From: Parerythrobacter jejuensis
Lineage (GTDB): Bacteria > Pseudomonadota > Alphaproteobacteria > Sphingomonadales > Sphingomonadaceae
Direction: 5' to 3'
DNA: 64,000 bases
Assembly (NCBI RefSeq): GCF_039536765.1
Contig: NZ_BAAAZF010000001.1
Span: 2,046,001 to 2,110,000 of the forward strand
How positions within the stretch are numbered: the first letter of the stretch is position 1; each line of letters begins with the position of its first letter. Made by a program: the position numbers and the translations under genes. The notes below the pieces were generated by a model that saw only the letters and a list, made by a program, of their open reading frames with translations, was not told where the DNA came from and ran no database searches. Below are positions 7,001 through 58,175 of this stretch, piece by piece.

Positions 7001-7038
7001 AAAAGAGCCGCTGCCTCAATCGAGGGAGCGGCTCTTTT
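7001..7038. terminator. Bidirectional Rho-independent terminator
   Basis: AAAAGAGCCGCT (7001-7012) pairs perfectly with AGCGGCTCTTTT (7027-7038). Inside the loop CCTC and GAGG pair again around AATC, with one G-G mismatch between the two stems. A T-run follows on both strands. It sits between the convergent ends of the sugar transferase gene and the small secreted-protein gene and should serve both. Confidence 0.9.
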
Positions 7039-7514: not shown

Positions 7515-8744
7515 GTGGCGTTCATTTCCATAATCGGCCTGAATTATGCCCCCGAGCCCATCGGGATCGGGCCCTACACGCAAGGCTGGGCCACGTCTCT
7601 GGCGCAACGCGGACATCGCGTGCAGGTCATTTGCGGTGCGCCCTATTATCCGGGTTGGTCACTTGCAGCAGGTTACAAGAACCGGTTTGCGGGGAGAGTT
7701 GAAGACGGGGTCGAGGTCTTGCGCGTGCCCCACTATATTCCTGCGCGGCCAACTGCTGCACGCCGAATGGCGCATTACGCTTCGTTCGCCGCCAATGCTG
7801 CCCGCGCCGTGCATCGCCAAGGCTCAGACTTCAGACCCGATGCGGTTGTCGCGATTGCCCCGGCGCTGCTCGCGGCGCCTGTCGCCTTGCGATTGGCGCG
7901 AAAGGCCGGGGCGCTGTCTTGGCTGCATATTCAGGACTTTGAGGTCGGTGCAGCCTTGGCGACAAGTCTCTTGCCCGCCTCACTGGCGAACCCGGCGTCG
8001 CGATTCGAGCGCTCGGCTATCAAGCGTTTCGACCATGTGAGCACAATCGCTCCAGCCATGTTGGACTTGGCCCGAAGCAAGGGAGCTGGAGCAGCGCAAC
8101 TGCACGAGCTTCGCAATTGGGCCGAGCCAGGCGTGGGTGCAGCAGGTATTCGCCCCGAAGATATGCGGGCCGAATTGGGATTGCCTGCTAGGAAAATCGC
8201 GCTCTACTCGGGCAATCTTGCCAGGAAGCAGGGTATCGATCTCATCCTTGATACGGCGGAGCGAACGCGGAACCGGGCTGACTTGCACTTTGTCGTCTGT
8301 GGTGAAGGTCCAGCGGTGACATTGGTAGAGCAAGCGGCGGAAGCACTGCCCAATCTGCACTACAGGCCGCTCCAACCGCGATCCAGACTGCCCGAACTCT
8401 TGGCGGTCGCGGATATTCACATGTTGCCGCAGCTGCCCGGGGCAGCTGATCTCGTATTGCCCTCGAAGCTCGCGAACATGCTCGCTTCGGGTCGGCCTGT
8501 CGTGACTAGCGCCGACCCGGGAACTGCGCTGGCCCGAGAGGTAGCAGGATGCGGCATTGTTGTTAGCACGAATGACAGGGAGGCATTTGCCAATGCAATC
8601 ACGGCGCTGGCCGATGACCAGGACCGCCGCGAAACTCTCGGGAACGAGGCGAAAATCAGGGCGAACGAGCGTTGGTCGCGCACCGGACTGCTTGACGCAT
8701 TCGGCGATGCGCTAGAGAGTGCCCTGCAGGACCACCGACAGTGA
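7515..8744 (+). CDS. WcaI-like glycosyltransferase (GT4, GT-B fold)
   Basis: Cytoplasmic, membrane-associated glycosyltransferase expected to add one sugar to the lipid-linked exopolysaccharide repeat. The 409-residue protein begins ISIIGLNYAPEPIGIGPYT, the hallmark of the WcaI family (colanic-acid type). The N-terminal Rossmann half continues to about residue 195. The C-terminal half has ALYSGNLARKQGIDLILD, FVVCGEGPAV and the donor-binding region ADLVLPSKLANMLASGRPVV. The start is GTG with TGGGGA upstream; the ORF could be extended, but the family N-terminus matches this codon. Its stop TGA overlaps the GTG of a short ORF that in turn overlaps the next glycosyltransferase. Donor and acceptor are unknown. 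Confidence 0.9.
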   Translation: MAFISIIGLNYAPEPIGIGPYTQGWATSLAQRGHRVQVICGAPYYPGWSLAAGYKNRFAGRVEDGVEVLRVPHYIPARPTAARRMAHYASFAANAARAVHRQGSDFRPDAVVAIAPALLAAPVALRLARKAGALSWLHIQDFEVGAALATSLLPASLANPASRFERSAIKRFDHVSTIAPAMLDLARSKGAGAAQLHELRNWAEPGVGAAGIRPEDMRAELGLPARKIALYSGNLARKQGIDLILDTAERTRNRADLHFVVCGEGPAVTLVEQAAEALPNLHYRPLQPRSRLPELLAVADIHMLPQLPGAADLVLPSKLANMLASGRPVVTSADPGTALAREVAGCGIVVSTNDREAFANAITALADDQDRRETLGNEAKIRANERWSRTGLLDAFGDALESALQDHRQ

Positions 8745-8908
8745 GCATATCGATTTTGGCAACACAAGCATCGGCACCGGCGCAAGCCATCCCGGGCTTA
8801 CGGCGGTCAGCAGCTTCTTATATTGCCATGGTGCAGGCCCGGGTGATCGATGAGCGCACGGGCGGACACTACCTCAAAGAAGGCGGCCGGGATCGAGACC
8901 GCACGTGA
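8741..8908 (+). CDS. Possible 55-aa coupling ORF between two glycosyltransferase genes
   Basis: GTG AGC ATA opens in the stop of the preceding gene (GTGA) and the frame closes with TGA inside the GTG start of the following gene (again GTGA). The peptide begins VSISILATQASAPAQ, continues RRSAASYIAMVQARV and ends EGGRDRDRT. An AGGACC stands about 9 nt before the GTG. It matches no family I know. Without it, 160 bp separate two genes in an otherwise tight run. It could be a real small protein, a translational-coupling device, or what is left of a decayed gene; the double 4-nt overlap is the only support. Confidence 0.35.
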   Translation: MSISILATQASAPAQAIPGLRRSAASYIAMVQARVIDERTGGHYLKEGGRDRDRT

Positions 8909-10110
8909 GAATTCTCCATGTCGTCGGAGATTCCAATCCCGCCATGGGCGGCGCCATCGAAGGGGTCTTCCAACTTGGCGATGCCTACAGGGCGATGGGC
9001 CATGTCCAGGAGCTGCTGACCCTCGATGCTCCGGATGATCCTTGGGTGGCAGCGGCACCCTCACCTGTCCACGCGCTTGGCCACCAAAGAACTGAGGCTC
9101 CTGGCGCACTCGGGCAATGGGCAGAGAAACTTCGCCCGCCGACGCAAGCAATTTCTTGGTTGCGAACAAACCTGGCCAACTATGACGCAGTCGTCGTCGA
9201 TGGATTGTGGAACACATCCACTTTGACTGCACGATGGGTCTTGCCCCGCGCCGGAGTGCCCTACGCTGTATTCTCGCACGGCATGCTTGATCCCTATTTC
9301 CGCACAACGCAGCCCGGTAAGGAATGGATCAAGCGACAGCTTTTCCGGGTGAATGAAAGGGTGCTGTTGCGAGGGGCGGAAGCCGCCTTGTTCACGACGC
9401 AACAAGAGCGAGACCTGGCTATCGAGGCTTGGCCAGGCTGGAAGAAAATTGAGAGCGAGGTGGTGGGGTTCGGCACCGGCGAGCCACCGGTTCGAAGCCC
9501 GGCCATGGCCGCTGCTTTCGCTGAGGCTGTTCCCGATGCTGCAGGTGAGCCGTACCTGCTGTTCCTCAGTCGTTTGCACCCCAAGAAAGGGTGCGAGATC
9601 CTACTTGAGGCCTTCGCGACTGCTGATCTGCCGGCCAATTTGCGGCTGGTCATGGCCGGGCCCGGTGATGCCGGATATGTGACCAAGCTGCGGGCGCAGG
9701 CAGAAGCGCTTGGCATTGGCGCGCGCACAGACTGGCCGAGAATGTTGAGCGGGAACGCCAAGTGGGGCGCGCTTTACGGCTGCGAAGCGATGGCATTGAT
9801 TTCACACCAGGAGAATTTTGGCGTCGTGGTGGCCGAAGCACTGGCGTGTGCCCGCCCAGTTGTCATCTCTGATCAGGTCAACCTCCATGGCACAATCAGT
9901 GCGGCCGGTTCGGGGATCGTTTGTGACAACAATGCTCCCTCGGCGCGCGAGGCGCTTGCAACAATCATGGCAATGTCACGGGAAGATCGAACCGCCATGG
10001 GCCAGGCAGGTCGCACGCAATTCGATCGCGAATTCGCGATGCGCCGCACCGCCGAGAGAATTTTGGCGTTGTTCGAGAGATCGCAGAACGAAAGCACCAA
10101 CAACGGATAA
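8905..10110 (+). CDS. Glycosyltransferase family 4 protein
   Basis: GT-B glycosyltransferase of 401 residues, expected to act on the growing exopolysaccharide repeat at the cytoplasmic face. The N-terminal half begins RILHVVGDSNPAMGGAIEGV, the usual nucleotide-free acceptor side, and includes AVFSHGMLDPYFR. The C-terminal donor half has LLFLSRLHPKKGCEILLEAF, VMAGPGDAGY and the E-x7-E region ENFGVVVAEALACARPVVISD. The start is GTG, inside the stop of the short upstream ORF; no better ATG lies nearby. Downstream, a 55-bp gap with a palindrome separates it from the SGNH cassette. The sugar specificity is unknown. Confidence 0.9.
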   Translation: MRILHVVGDSNPAMGGAIEGVFQLGDAYRAMGHVQELLTLDAPDDPWVAAAPSPVHALGHQRTEAPGALGQWAEKLRPPTQAISWLRTNLANYDAVVVDGLWNTSTLTARWVLPRAGVPYAVFSHGMLDPYFRTTQPGKEWIKRQLFRVNERVLLRGAEAALFTTQQERDLAIEAWPGWKKIESEVVGFGTGEPPVRSPAMAAAFAEAVPDAAGEPYLLFLSRLHPKKGCEILLEAFATADLPANLRLVMAGPGDAGYVTKLRAQAEALGIGARTDWPRMLSGNAKWGALYGCEAMALISHQENFGVVVAEALACARPVVISDQVNLHGTISAAGSGIVCDNNAPSAREALATIMAMSREDRTAMGQAGRTQFDREFAMRRTAERILALFERSQNESTNNG

Positions 10111-10125
10111 AGTCCTTTCCTACAA

Positions 10126-10142
10126 ATAACCATAATGGTTAT
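10126..10142. promoter_or_regulatory. Perfect 17-nt palindrome, possible operator
   Basis: ATAACCAT-A-ATGGTTAT is perfectly symmetric around one base and lies 22 bp before the ATG of the next gene, in a short AT-rich patch of an otherwise GC-rich region. This looks like a dimer-binding site controlling the two-gene SGNH cassette. The regulator is unknown and no second copy was noticed in the window. Confidence 0.4.
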
Positions 10143-10164
10143 GCGCAGCTCGAAAGGAGTTGCC

Positions 10165-10515
10165 ATGCCTGATTCTCTGCCCCCGATCCGCCACCCTTCC
10201 CGATTTGTCCCTCTTTCGGCCGTAGCCACAGGAGTACCCGGAGAACCCGCGTTGCCGGTCAGCGCCACCAATCCGGTTCCCTGTCGTGACCAACCCTTGC
10301 GTGGCGCGCGCATGCTCTCCGCTGATATCGCGGTCGAGCCCGGCATCGCGCTCCTGGTCGATTGCAGCGTTGCCGGCCTCGCCTCATTCACGCTTGAGGA
10401 TGGATCCACGCTTTCGCTGACTCTCGCCCCCGGGCTCACGATGTTGCCCCTGGCCGTGTCCACTGTTGCCTCGGCCAATCAGACAGCGCAGTTTGACGCG
10501 TGGGTGCTCGACTGA
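10165..10515 (+). CDS. Hypothetical protein upstream of SGNH hydrolase
   Basis: A 116-residue protein without signal peptide or membrane helix. The ATG is preceded by AAAGGAG at good spacing, better than an in-frame ATG 30 nt upstream. The sequence starts MPDSLPPIRHPSRFVPLS and is then a run of short strand-like segments (LSADIAVEPGIALLVDC, SFTLEDGSTLSLTLAPG, TMLPLAVSTV) ending AQFDAWVLD. This build reminds me of small beta proteins at the base of phage or gene-transfer-agent tail spikes, but only in style; no motif proves it. Its stop overlaps the next ATG (TGATG), so it is translationally coupled to the SGNH hydrolase and the two probably act together. Confidence 0.7.
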   Translation: MPDSLPPIRHPSRFVPLSAVATGVPGEPALPVSATNPVPCRDQPLRGARMLSADIAVEPGIALLVDCSVAGLASFTLEDGSTLSLTLAPGLTMLPLAVSTVASANQTAQFDAWVLD

Positions 10516-11981
10516 TGCTGGCGCTACATGCTCCGCGCGCAGCGGCTCCCGACAAGCTGACCTCACTTGCTGGTGATGCCATCATTCCTCAATTGATTGA
10601 TCCCATGCCGACAGTAAGCGAGAGCGCGTCCTCTACCCTCCCGCGCTATTGGCCGACCTCCAGCGGTACGCCCTTCTACCAAATGGCTTCGGCACCTCAG
10701 GGCGGGGTCTTTACCTTCTGCCGTGGCCTGCCGGGTAGCACCCAGTCGGGCATTACCTATTCCGAAGGCCGCGTGATGACCGCCTCGAATGCAGGCGCGC
10801 GCGCCACGCTTGGCCAGCAGTGGTCGTTCATTCACGAGGGTGCCAAGATCGAGCTGCAGGTTCGAAGCAATCCGCACGGCTTCCTCGTCCGGGTCGACAA
10901 CAAGTTTCTTTCACTTGAGCCATACCAGACTTCAGGCCAGACCATCGTTACTCTTGATTTCGGGATGTTGGCCCGCCGTCGGATCGATCTCATCTCTTGG
11001 GGCATGGGCTTCGCCGGTATTTTCACCGATCCCACCGATAGCGTGTTTGCCGCTACCTTGCGCGGGCCACGGGCGATTATCTTTGGAGACAGCTTCACGA
11101 CTCCCGCACCAACAAACTGGGCAACTTGGTTTGGCCATGCGATGGGTTGGGACGACGTCTGGCCCAGCGGTGTCGGCGGCACCGGCTTCGTCAATGACGG
11201 CAATGGCAATGCAGTCTCCCTACCTGACCGTGTTGCGACCGACATTGTGCCTTACAACCCCGACCTCGTATTCTTGCATGCTGGCCTCAATGATTTTCTG
11301 GTCCCGCCTGATGAAGTGGAGGAAGGGGCTTTCCATACTGTCAGGCGCATCCGCGACGCATTGCCCTCTACGCAGGTCGTCGGGGGTGCCGATACCGCTT
11401 TCGGCATTGAAGCCTGGAGCGCAGCCAATCTTGACACGCTGGACGCCATCCGCACGGGTATTGAACGCGGGGGCGGGCACTGGATTAGTCCGGTCGAACT
11501 GCCTCTTGCCTTTGCCGGTCAGCCGATTGGTGCGGAGGCGACGCTATATGCGCCCGTTTCTGCGGGCCAAGCGGGAAATGATGGTACGCCCGACAGCGTA
11601 ACCCATCCCAACGGGTTCACGTGTAATACGGCAGTCGACAATTCGCTGGTCAACCTGCGGATCGGTTCGGTGGTCGAGATCGGGAGCGGACCCAATCGGG
11701 AACGGGTCGCGATTACAAGCGTGGGTTTCCATCACGCTCGCCTCGTTTACGGCTTTGACGGTGCGATGCAGTATGACCACGTGGCAGGGGAACCCGTCCG
11801 TGAAGTTGGCCCTTGTTTCGTAACGGGCCATGGTACGTCGGCCAGTCCTTCAGGCTGGGGCAGCGCCGACCGCTTCATTGGAGTGGACAACTTCCACTAC
11901 TCTCCGGAAGGCCATCGGGCGCTGGGCGCGGTCAATGCGGCATTGTTGCGGCAGCACTTACGCGGACGCCCGTTGATCTAG
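10515..11981 (+). CDS. SGNH/GDSL-family hydrolase without export signal
   Basis: A 488-residue protein with an SGNH hydrolase domain. Block I is GDSFTTPAP at about residue 194 (nucleophile Ser), the Gly block is around GVGGTGFVNDGNG, block III is HAGLNDF (Asn), and block V is DNFHYSPEGH (Asp and His). About 100 residues are inserted before block V (TLYAPVSAGQ to GPCFVTGHG), probably a small beta domain. The roughly 190 N-terminal residues are a separate beta-rich domain. Such enzymes remove or transfer acetyl or other acyl groups on sugars. No signal peptide is visible, which is odd for an enzyme acting on a capsule. It is coupled to the gene before it and sits among glycosyltransferase genes. 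Confidence 0.85.
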   Translation: MLALHAPRAAAPDKLTSLAGDAIIPQLIDPMPTVSESASSTLPRYWPTSSGTPFYQMASAPQGGVFTFCRGLPGSTQSGITYSEGRVMTASNAGARATLGQQWSFIHEGAKIELQVRSNPHGFLVRVDNKFLSLEPYQTSGQTIVTLDFGMLARRRIDLISWGMGFAGIFTDPTDSVFAATLRGPRAIIFGDSFTTPAPTNWATWFGHAMGWDDVWPSGVGGTGFVNDGNGNAVSLPDRVATDIVPYNPDLVFLHAGLNDFLVPPDEVEEGAFHTVRRIRDALPSTQVVGGADTAFGIEAWSAANLDTLDAIRTGIERGGGHWISPVELPLAFAGQPIGAEATLYAPVSAGQAGNDGTPDSVTHPNGFTCNTAVDNSLVNLRIGSVVEIGSGPNRERVAITSVGFHHARLVYGFDGAMQYDHVAGEPVREVGPCFVTGHGTSASPSGWGSADRFIGVDNFHYSPEGHRALGAVNAALLRQHLRGRPLI

Positions 11982-11987
11982 CCCGGC

Positions 11988-12047
11988 GGCACGCTGGCAG
12001 CTAGGGATGATGACAATGGAACAGCCAACCATCCCTGCCAGCGTGCC
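11988..12047 (+). promoter_or_regulatory. Strong hairpin over the start site of the next glycosyltransferase gene
   Basis: GGCACGCTGGCAG (11988-12000) pairs perfectly with CTGCCAGCGTGCC (12035-12047), and GGATG (12005-12009) pairs with CATCC (12030-12034). The result is 18 base pairs with one 4-nt bulge (CTAG) and a 20-nt loop. The AGGGATG that serves as ribosome site and first start codon is inside the stem, while a further in-frame ATG at 12016 lies in the loop. No T-run follows, so it is not a normal terminator. It probably limits translation initiation or protects an RNA end. Confidence 0.6.
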
Positions 12048-12987
12048 TTCGCTGACGGTCGTCGTCCTTACACGAGATGAGGAAATCCACATCGCTCGTG
12101 CGCTAGCATCGCTTGATGGCCTCGCGAGCAGGATCGTGGTGGTCGATTCCGGATCATACGACAAGACCCGCGAAATCGCAGCTGCGACCGGCGCCAACGT
12201 GTTCGAACGTCCGTGGGTCAACTATGCTGACCAATTCCAGTGGGCACTAGATCACACCGGCATCAACACCGAGTGGACGATGCGCCTGGATGCCGACGAG
12301 TGGCTGGGCAAGGACCTAGTCGCCTCGCTCCGACAAGCCTTGGCGAACAGCGACGGCGGAGTCAGCGCAATCAGCCTCGACCGCCAACATCATTTCATGG
12401 GTCGATGGATCCGGCATGGCGGGCGATATCCGTTGCGGCTGTTGCGACTCTGGCGAACCGGTATGGGCCGGATCGAGCAACGCTGGATGGACGAGCATAT
12501 TGTCGTCGACCGGGGCCGCATTCGTCATGTTCCTGGGACGTTTGTCGATCAGAATGAAAACGACCTGTCGTTCTTCACCACCAAGCACGATGCCTACGCC
12601 ACCCGAGAGGCATTGGACGCGTTGATTGCTAAGCACGCTCTATTCGATCTGCCTGAAGATGGCGCGCTGGAGAGCACTGGACAGGCCAGGCAGACACGCA
12701 CGATCAAAAACGGATGGTATAACCGACTGCCAACTGGCTTGGGTCCACTGCTCTATTTTCTCTACCGTTATATCCTGCAGCTGGGTTTCCTCGATGGAAG
12801 GCCAGGCCTGATTTATCATGTACTGCAGGGTTTCTGGTATCGGTTCCTTGTCGATGCCAAGCGGGTCGAACTGGAGCAGACAATCGATGGCGCCGAGACC
12901 GCCGCAGAGAAGGTGGACAGACTGAGCAAGGCCACCGGTCATGACCTCGCGGCATTTGCCGCTTCGCAGACGCAATTGCCGCGCTAG
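12007..12987 (+). CDS. Glycosyltransferase family 2 (WaaE/KdtX-like)
   Basis: A 326-residue GT-A glycosyltransferase. Residues about 15-110 have the family 2 core: LTVVVLTRDEEIHIARAL, IVVVDSGSYDKT, and the metal-binding MRLDADEW. These motifs match the WaaE/KdtX group, which adds beta-linked glucose to lipopolysaccharide core or exopolysaccharide units. The C-terminal third has amphipathic and hydrophobic stretches (LGPLLYFLYRYILQLG) typical for membrane attachment in this group. Three candidate starts (12007, 12010 and 12016) lie in or beside a strong RNA hairpin. The stop overlaps the oppositely read next gene by 4 nt, closing the plus half of the locus. The acceptor is unknown. Confidence 0.9.
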   Translation: MMTMEQPTIPASVPSLTVVVLTRDEEIHIARALASLDGLASRIVVVDSGSYDKTREIAAATGANVFERPWVNYADQFQWALDHTGINTEWTMRLDADEWLGKDLVASLRQALANSDGGVSAISLDRQHHFMGRWIRHGGRYPLRLLRLWRTGMGRIEQRWMDEHIVVDRGRIRHVPGTFVDQNENDLSFFTTKHDAYATREALDALIAKHALFDLPEDGALESTGQARQTRTIKNGWYNRLPTGLGPLLYFLYRYILQLGFLDGRPGLIYHVLQGFWYRFLVDAKRVELEQTIDGAETAAEKVDRLSKATGHDLAAFAASQTQLPR

Positions 12988-13790
12988 CCAGCCTTGAACA
13001 ACGGACCCTTCTGCAATCGTTCGATCGTTCTTCTCGGGTGCCTCAAATGCTTCGCCAACCGGAGCGCACGCGAACCGAGATCGTCCCGCCAATCCCATGG
13101 TCGCCCCATCAAGCGTTCGAAATTGCGTAACGCATTGGCATGGTGTCGCTCTGCCAACTTGCCGGACATCGTTATCGAGTCGGCATGCAACCGATAAGCG
13201 CCCAAGACAGCATCGATCACTTCGATCCGCGCTCCGGACAGAAACAGCGATGTCAGCAATCCCCCGTCCCAATTGCCCCGATCCGAAGCGTCGAAGCCGC
13301 CTGCTTTTCTAAACGCATCGGCCCGGATAAATGTCGCGGGCTGGATCTGGACATGCGCACCAGTGGCGACCGCATAGCGCTGAAATGGCTCGGACCAGAC
13401 GCAGCGAATGTGCTTCCCGGTTTCGTCGATCACTTCGGCATGGCCGCACAGCACATCGACTTCCGGATGGGCAGCAAAATATTGCGCCGCACATGCAAAC
13501 GCCCCTGGCAACACCAGATCGTCTGAATTGAGATAGTAAAAAATGTCGCCCGTGGCTTGCGCGAAGCCTTTGTTCAGACCGTCTGCAGGGCCCTCATCGG
13601 GTTCGAATACCCGGATGATCCGAGGATCTGGATTGGCGTCGATGATTGCTCTGCTTGTGTCAGTGGAGCCAGGATCGCATAGGATGTACTCGATCTCTGC
13701 ATGTGTCTGGGACAGAACCGAATCCATTGCAGCCAGCAGGAAGGCATCCTGATTGTAGGAGATGGTGACGACGCTGAAGCGCGGTGTCAT
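12984..13790 (-). CDS. Glycosyltransferase family 2 protein
   Basis: A 268-residue GT-A glycosyltransferase and the last gene of the minus-strand half of the exopolysaccharide locus. It begins RFSVVTISYNQDAFLLAAMD, then shows EYILCDPGSTDTSRAII, GPADGLNKGFAQATGDIFYY and LNSDD, the metal-binding DxD-type motif. The acceptor part includes GGFDASDRGNWDGGLL and ends in a basic helix. It has no membrane helix. It overlaps the upstream acyltransferase gene by 4 nt, so the two are coupled. It likely adds one sugar to the repeat unit; which one is not visible. Confidence 0.9.
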   Translation of the reverse strand: MTPRFSVVTISYNQDAFLLAAMDSVLSQTHAEIEYILCDPGSTDTSRAIIDANPDPRIIRVFEPDEGPADGLNKGFAQATGDIFYYLNSDDLVLPGAFACAAQYFAAHPEVDVLCGHAEVIDETGKHIRCVWSEPFQRYAVATGAHVQIQPATFIRADAFRKAGGFDASDRGNWDGGLLTSLFLSGARIEVIDAVLGAYRLHADSITMSGKLAERHHANALRNFERLMGRPWDWRDDLGSRALRLAKHLRHPRRTIERLQKGPLFKAG

Positions 13791-56897: not shown

Positions 56898-56975
56898 GCA
56901 CCGGCCCAATCCCCCACCCGGCCTCCCAAACAGTATCGTGCCGTGGGTGGCCGGGTGGGGGGAGTGGGCCGGTGC
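56898..56975 (-). repeat. Long imperfect inverted repeat between acyl-CoA dehydrogenase and Mct-like genes
   Basis: CCCCCACCCGGC (56911-56922) pairs with GCCGGGTGGGGG (56950-56961); after a 2x3 internal loop GCACCGGCCCA (56898-56908) pairs with TGGGCCGGTGC (56965-56975). The loop is 27 nt. The 23-bp stem is very GC-rich, sits in the 151-bp gap inside the operon and has no T-run after it, so it is more likely an RNA stabiliser, processing site or attenuator than a plain terminator. Confidence 0.6.
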
Positions 56976-56999
56976 GGCCGAGCCGTCAGGCGAGCCAAC

Positions 57000-58175
57000 T
57001 CAAGAATTCTCCGCAAATTCGCGCAGCATGTGCTTGGCGATCTGCAGATACAGGATCTGCGTCGTGCCTTCATAGATGCGATAGATGCGGGCATCGCGGA
57101 AGAACCGTTCGGCATCATATTCGGCCAGATAGCCCGCGCCGCCATAGACCTGCACCACCCGATCGACGACGCGGCCGCACATCTCGCTGGAGAAGACCTT
57201 GAAGGCTGCCGCCTTGCGCAGGATGTTCTCACCCTTGTCGGCGCGTTCTGTCACGTCCTTCATCATCGCTTCGGCGGCGTAGATTTCCGTCTCGCTCTCG
57301 GCCAGCATTTGCTGGATCAGCTGGAAATTGGCGATTGGTTCGCCAAACGCCTTGCGCTCATTGGCATAGCGCACAGCACTGTCGAGCGCGCGGCGGGCAT
57401 AGCCGGCGGCGGCTGCGCCCACGGAAATGCGGCCATTGTCGAGGCTCATCATGGCGAACCGGAAGCCCTTGCCGGTTTCAGCGCCCAGCAAGGCATCACC
57501 GGGCACCTTCACATCCTCCAGGATCACGTCGGAGATATGGCTGCCCTCCTGGCCCATCTTCTTGTCCGGGCTGGCGGTGGAAACGCCGGGCGTATCCATC
57601 GGTACGATAAAGGCGCTGACATGGGCGTTCTTGGGCAGCGCCTCTTTCTCGGTCCGTGCCATGATCAGGCCGACCTGCGCATGCGGGGCATTGGTGATGT
57701 AGCGTTTGGTGCCGTTGAGGATCCAGCCATTGCCGTCCGGATCAGGCTTGGCCGTGGTCGCCATGGCCGCACTGTCGGAACCGGAGCCCGGCTCGGTCAG
57801 ACCGAAGCAAGCGATTTCACCGGCGGCAATGCGGGGCCACCATTCGGCCTTCTGGGCATCGGTCGCGCCATTCTTGATCGCCGAATTGAACATCCCGACA
57901 TTGATCGAGAAGATCGAACGATAGGCCGGCGCGGCATAGGCCATAGTGTTGACCACGCGGGCATATTGCGAAGTGTTGAGCCCGGCCCCGCCATATTCCT
58001 CTGGCACGGTCAGCCCGAACAGCCCCATTTCTTTCATCTCGGTGACAATTTCGTCAGGGATCTTGTCGTTGGCGATCACGTCCTTCTCGGCCGGGATCAG
58101 CCGCTCGCGCACATAGCGGTCTAGCTGCTCGATGAATTGTTCGAATGTCTCGGGATCCATGCCGGTTGCGGCCAT
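57000..58175 (-). CDS. Acyl-CoA dehydrogenase
   Basis: FAD-dependent dehydrogenase of 391 residues. The N-terminal helical domain begins FEQFIEQLDRYVRERLIPAE with FGLTVPEEYGGAGLNTSQYA, the middle beta domain has ACFGLTEPGSGSDSAAMATT and WILNGTKRYITNAPHAQVGL, and the C-terminal domain has RKAFGEPIANFQLIQQMLAE and VQVYGGAGYLAEYDAERFFR. The catalytic base is the Glu in YRIYEGTTQILYLQIAKH. It introduces a double bond into an acyl-CoA and passes electrons to electron transfer flavoprotein. First gene of the operon; branched short-chain acids are possible substrates given the Mct/Meh-like partners. Confidence 0.93.
   Translation of the reverse strand: MAATGMDPETFEQFIEQLDRYVRERLIPAEKDVIANDKIPDEIVTEMKEMGLFGLTVPEEYGGAGLNTSQYARVVNTMAYAAPAYRSIFSINVGMFNSAIKNGATDAQKAEWWPRIAAGEIACFGLTEPGSGSDSAAMATTAKPDPDGNGWILNGTKRYITNAPHAQVGLIMARTEKEALPKNAHVSAFIVPMDTPGVSTASPDKKMGQEGSHISDVILEDVKVPGDALLGAETGKGFRFAMMSLDNGRISVGAAAAGYARRALDSAVRYANERKAFGEPIANFQLIQQMLAESETEIYAAEAMMKDVTERADKGENILRKAAAFKVFSSEMCGRVVDRVVQVYGGAGYLAEYDAERFFRDARIYRIYEGTTQILYLQIAKHMLREFAENS

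Follow-up and report, generated by a model that had tools for sequence, protein, structure and literature searches.

A start-enclosing RNA hairpin at the SGNH-GT2 junction of a putative sphingomonad exopolysaccharide operon and its possible role in damping translation

At the junction between an SGNH hydrolase gene and a family 2 glycosyltransferase (GT2) gene of Parerythrobacter jejuensis, 18 Watson-Crick pairs join positions 11988-12009 to 12030-12047 of the window (the whole stretch of 64,000 nucleotides that was analysed), forming a predicted RNA hairpin with a single 4-nt bulge. Folding and comparison with related genomes indicate that this hairpin is real and most likely maintained by selection on its pairing. 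The reading we prefer, to which we give a probability of roughly 0.5, is that it is a cis-acting junction element which lowers translation of GT2, the last gene of the operon. The features concerned, all on the forward (+) strand, are as follows.

10515..11981, +, SGNH/GDSL hydrolase gene (Pfam PF13472, E 1.5e-9; from the open reading frame list, start by codon score)
11988..12009, +, hairpin left arm (12 nt, the 4-nt bulge GCTA, then 6 nt), beginning 6 nt past the SGNH stop
12002..12006, +, probable Shine-Dalgarno sequence TAGGG, part in the bulge and part in the inner stem, with 9 nt spacing to ATG 12016
12010..12029, +, apical loop containing ATG 12010 and the likely true start ATG 12016 (fold and orthologue alignment)
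12016..12987, +, GT2 gene (Pfam PF00535, E 1.1e-8; conserved gene order)
12030..12047, +, hairpin right arm, within the GT2 coding sequence (sequence and fold)

The exact complementary blocks of 13 and 5 bp with a 4-nt bulge that an earlier note had read from the letters are borne out by the sequence and by thermodynamic folding, in which RNAfold divides the same stem equivalently into 12 and 6 pairs. The arms, GGCACGCTGGCA-gcta-GGGATG (11988-12009) and CATCCC-TGCCAGCGTGCC (12030-12047), pair perfectly, and the folding energy of 11988-12047 is -32.8 kcal/mol. Against dinucleotide shuffles the junction alone (from the SGNH stop to GT2 residue 16) has z = -4.8, and the longer segment 11960-12080 has z = -2.57. 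Directly 3' of the stem stands TTCGCTGACGG and no U-tract, and a terminator scan gave no match there. The 12-nt block of the left arm recurs elsewhere in the genome only at two single-arm places. A repeat element was considered and rejected, the 121-nt stretch being single-copy in the genome. Searches against Rfam found nothing at gathering score in six related loci, and the best match in the window (17.3 bits, where the gathering score is 40) lies away from the hairpin.

Three in-frame ATGs occur at the GT2 start, one in the left arm (12007, where the longest open reading frame opens) and two in the loop (12010 and 12016). The earlier note had counted two, a first ATG and a second in the loop. 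ATG 12016 is most likely the true start, because the spacing from TAGGG fits and because the starts of the orthologues in G001 and G002, which are unambiguous owing to an in-frame TAA immediately ahead of the ATG, align with it, as does that of G004. Since this codon sits in the loop, pairing does not cover it directly, and the opening cost of its immediate surroundings (-12 to +5) is average, with the accessibility of an average gene. However, opening the full 30S footprint (-20 to +15) costs 22.9 kcal/mol, in the top 5.6% of 499 starts; the corresponding costs in the genus relatives are 25-31.5 kcal/mol (top 0.4%, 0.4% and 2.6%), and in G018, G247 and locus L024 they fall in the top 0-0.4%. 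The proposal that the hairpin hides the start site is therefore only partly right, since it applies to the footprint as a whole and not to the start codon itself. A costly footprint around a loop-borne start codon favours damped initiation over full concealment.

Whether such a structure is unusual depends on which property is counted. The genome background consisted of 400 kb of stretches together with the window (464 kb), with genes called by a simple codon-score caller that is rough enough for individual starts to be wrong. Local folding energies as low as that of the hairpin are common in this GC-rich genome, each strand of the 64-kb window having dozens of them, and exact arms of at least 13 bp with a loop of up to 50 nt occur about once per 90 kb. 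A start lying inside a Watson-Crick stem of 9 bp or longer was found once among the 372 called genes in the 464 kb sampled, at GT2. Similarly, among 136 called genes of the related loci only four starts are enclosed in this way, all of them of GT2 orthologues. Counts of enclosing pairs from the plain minimum free energy fold were dropped because they do not discriminate, more than half of all genes having 12 or more. The earlier judgement that pairing of this kind is unlikely by chance is hence sound for its placement around a start and does not extend to folding energy, which is ordinary here.

A search for the SGNH protein across 398 genomes of the family found it in ten besides the window genome. 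Orthologous junctions were located through the protein, DNA similarity searches in the relatives having returned only short chance matches. An SGNH-GT2 hairpin of at least 10 pairs is found in nine of these ten genomes, and in 10 of 11 with the window included. The junction z-scores and longest stems (G-U pairs allowed) are -4.8 and 13 in the window, -5.5 and 15 in G001, -5.2 and 10 in G002, -3.2 and 13 in G004, -4.6 and 17 in G018, -3.2 and 15 in G065, -0.7 and 9 in G093, -2.4 and 10 in G162, -4.7 and 13 in G247, -1.6 and 12 in G283, and -3.1 and 16 in G367. At 110 other tandem junctions the mean z is -0.3. Although energies of this order are common in the genome taken alone, chance pairing in GC-rich DNA is a very improbable explanation, given the scores in the four genus members and z at or below -2.3 at 9 of the 11 junctions, against z at or below -2 at 10% of the 110 background junctions.

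A hairpin of 12-18 bp with the ATG at its loop is present in all four same-genus genomes that carry the gene (window, G001, G002 and G004); the loop, or its 3' edge, holds the GT2 ATG, and the right arm codes for the first GT2 residues. Beyond the genus, G018 and G247 have stems of 13-17 bp over candidate GT2 starts, and L024, which has a gene for a different protein in place of SGNH upstream, has a perfect 13-bp stem over a GT2 start. By contrast, the hairpins of G065, G162, G283 and G367, mostly with a pyrimidine-rich tail, lie between stop and start and leave the GT2 start free and ordinarily accessible, and G093 has no clear hairpin. A hairpin at the junction is thus general, and its enclosure of the start is the rule in the genus and recurs elsewhere.

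Pairing has been kept in the genus while the letters of the arms have changed. G001, G002 and G004 share an apex, GGC(A/G)GCTA...ATGGC(T/C)GCC, outside which the pairs differ by double changes. Compared from the apex outwards, these three show 3-4 pair-preserving double changes per comparison with none of 15 pairs broken, in a hand alignment of few sequences with bulges left out. When arms were swapped between genomes the native arms always paired best, an illustrative result only, as the arms had been chosen for pairing. The compensatory changes that the earlier note had proposed to look for in homologous loci are accordingly present within the genus, and the contrary case it had named, the same gene order without pairing, was not seen there, all four members keeping the pairing with altered arms. 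Beyond GCTA and ATGG there is little common sequence in the arms and loops of the genus, and no sign was found of the specific RNA-binding protein on which translation had been suggested to depend. A sequence-based RNA search would miss the hairpin because the arms differ so much between species, and the case is a clear natural example of an operon junction that has preserved its pairing across genera but not its sequence.

The preferred reading builds on a predicted structure that is placed around a gene start, is rare in the genome and has been retained by relatives whose arm sequences differ. On a polycistronic exopolysaccharide mRNA, a stem of 12-18 bp would close just past the SGNH stop and place the GT2 start codon in the loop or the 3' arm. 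Acting through its structure rather than its sequence, it would impose an unusually large unfolding cost on a 30S subunit initiating on GT2, and GT2 output would as a result be set lower than that of the upstream genes. We further infer cotranscription, a downward effect, and that neither a ligand nor a dedicated protein takes part. Three observations count against damping of GT2: the free starts of G065, G162, G283 and G367 along with the hairpin-less G093, the average local opening cost at the loop-borne ATG 12016, and the occurrence of such a stem in only 2 of 74 GT2 homologues without SGNH. Most likely the hairpin functions like known operon-junction hairpins and is a new instance rather than a new kind. 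It resembles the reviewed hairpin-occluded initiation regions of structured downstream operon genes (PMC12548453) in that the start region of a gene further down the operon falls within a stable stem, and differs from them in having the start codon in the loop and the predicted stem outside the upstream gene. No publication describing such an element in sphingomonad exopolysaccharide operons turned up in a search of the literature.

The main rival, which we regard as a less probable but substantial alternative, is a 3'-protective intercistronic hairpin of the malE-malF type, blocking 3'-5' exonucleases after cleavage in GT2 so that the GT4-GT4-orf-SGNH part of the message outlives GT2; enclosure of the GT2 start would then be a by-product of the short gap. 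In the genus, a stable hairpin without a U-tract does stand at the end of the upstream gene and extends into the downstream coding sequence; in most orthologues the hairpin begins 3-19 nt past the SGNH stop. The protective hairpins of differentially decaying operons are likewise stable and conserved, lack a U-tract and mostly lie within the gene that follows (Dar and Sorek 2018, PMC5927463), and protection would also account for the four genomes with a free start. However, those of the published hairpins that are embedded in the downstream gene lie on average about 107 nt inside it, whereas the present one is on the start codon. Moreover, the stems of G018, G247 and L024 begin 31-45 nt past the upstream stop yet enclose a GT2 start, suggesting that their position follows the start and not the stop. 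Protection could possibly coexist with damping, the same hairpin also shielding the upstream mRNA. Translational coupling, in which ribosomes finishing SGNH would melt the hairpin and license GT2, as the earlier note had entertained, is weakly supported and in our estimation quite improbable. In its favour, only 6 nt separate the stem base from the stop in the window and G004, with a similarly short gap in G002, and G002 and G004 have no clear Shine-Dalgarno sequence. Nevertheless, the left arm starts past the SGNH stop in every orthologue (about 5-19 nt in the genus, with 19 nt in G001, 33-45 nt in G018 and G247, and 45 nt at most), and in none does part of the inhibitory stem lie within the translated upstream gene, as coupling needed in the published case (PMC12548453). 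As the arm begins 6 nt (19 nt in G001) past the stop, a terminating ribosome could probably melt at most a few pairs. According to the same review, coupling disappeared in one case in which the stop was well ahead of the hairpin, and structure immediately 3' of the stop lowers it. Pairing of the SGNH 3' end with the left arm could compete in G004 and G002; none is listed for G000 or G001.

Descent from an ancestral SGNH terminator or attenuator, which would have stayed terminator-like in some relatives but lost its T-tail as the gap shrank in this genus, with a leftover or partial terminator as its remainder, appears unlikely. A G-rich 5' arm and a C-rich 3' arm right past the stop, as in intrinsic terminators, occur in most relatives, and G065, G162, G283 and G367 combine G-rich left arms with pyrimidine-rich tails such as CTCTTCC. 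Against this, none of the four genus members has a T-run, so that the earlier inference against a simple terminator holds across the genus, the start codon lies in the loop, the scan found no terminator at the hairpin, ordinary terminators of this genome have A-rich and T-rich flanks (for instance 7001-7038), and the genus pairing is kept through double changes without a tail. It is comparably doubtful that the stem-loop is a dedicated condition-responsive switch (responding for example to temperature or an RNA chaperone), selected for shape alone in several genera of the family; if it were, the chain or decoration of the exopolysaccharide would be tuned through the last glycosyltransferase. 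The hairpin would lend itself to a straightforward test of what sets operon stoichiometry in alphaproteobacterial polysaccharide clusters, structure at the start site or protection of the 3' end.

GT2 is the last gene of a run on the + strand, and the order GT4-GT4-orf-SGNH-GT2 is found in all 11 genomes (window and ten others). Because this order is conserved, the genes are inferred to be cotranscribed; a scan of 10000-13200 limited to sigma-70-type promoters gave no match. The probable start of SGNH, ATG 10515, overlaps the stop codon of the orf before it (TGATG, within 10500-10517), unlike the spaced SGNH-GT2 junction, and the stop reported within the SGNH match of some relatives may precede the start equivalent to ATG 10515. 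The start-to-start distance between the GT4 genes (7515-10110) is about 1.4 kb here and about 2.5 kb in the ten relatives, which suggests that the window genome lacks a gene of about 1.1 kb. After the sugar-transferase gene, 7001-7038 forms a textbook bidirectional terminator with a 12-bp stem and AAAA/TTTT flanks, and the same kind stands 3' of the sugar-transferase orthologue in G001 (L129). In L115, near 12498 on the minus strand, a perfect 18-bp inverted repeat with a 4-nt loop and no T-run lies just past a gene (GCCGATGTTCAGAAAAGTGCTCACTTTTCTGAACATCGGC). Nowhere in the window is local folding stronger (-68 kcal/mol) than at 56898-56976, a long near-perfect inverted repeat just past the minus-strand gene 57000-58175.
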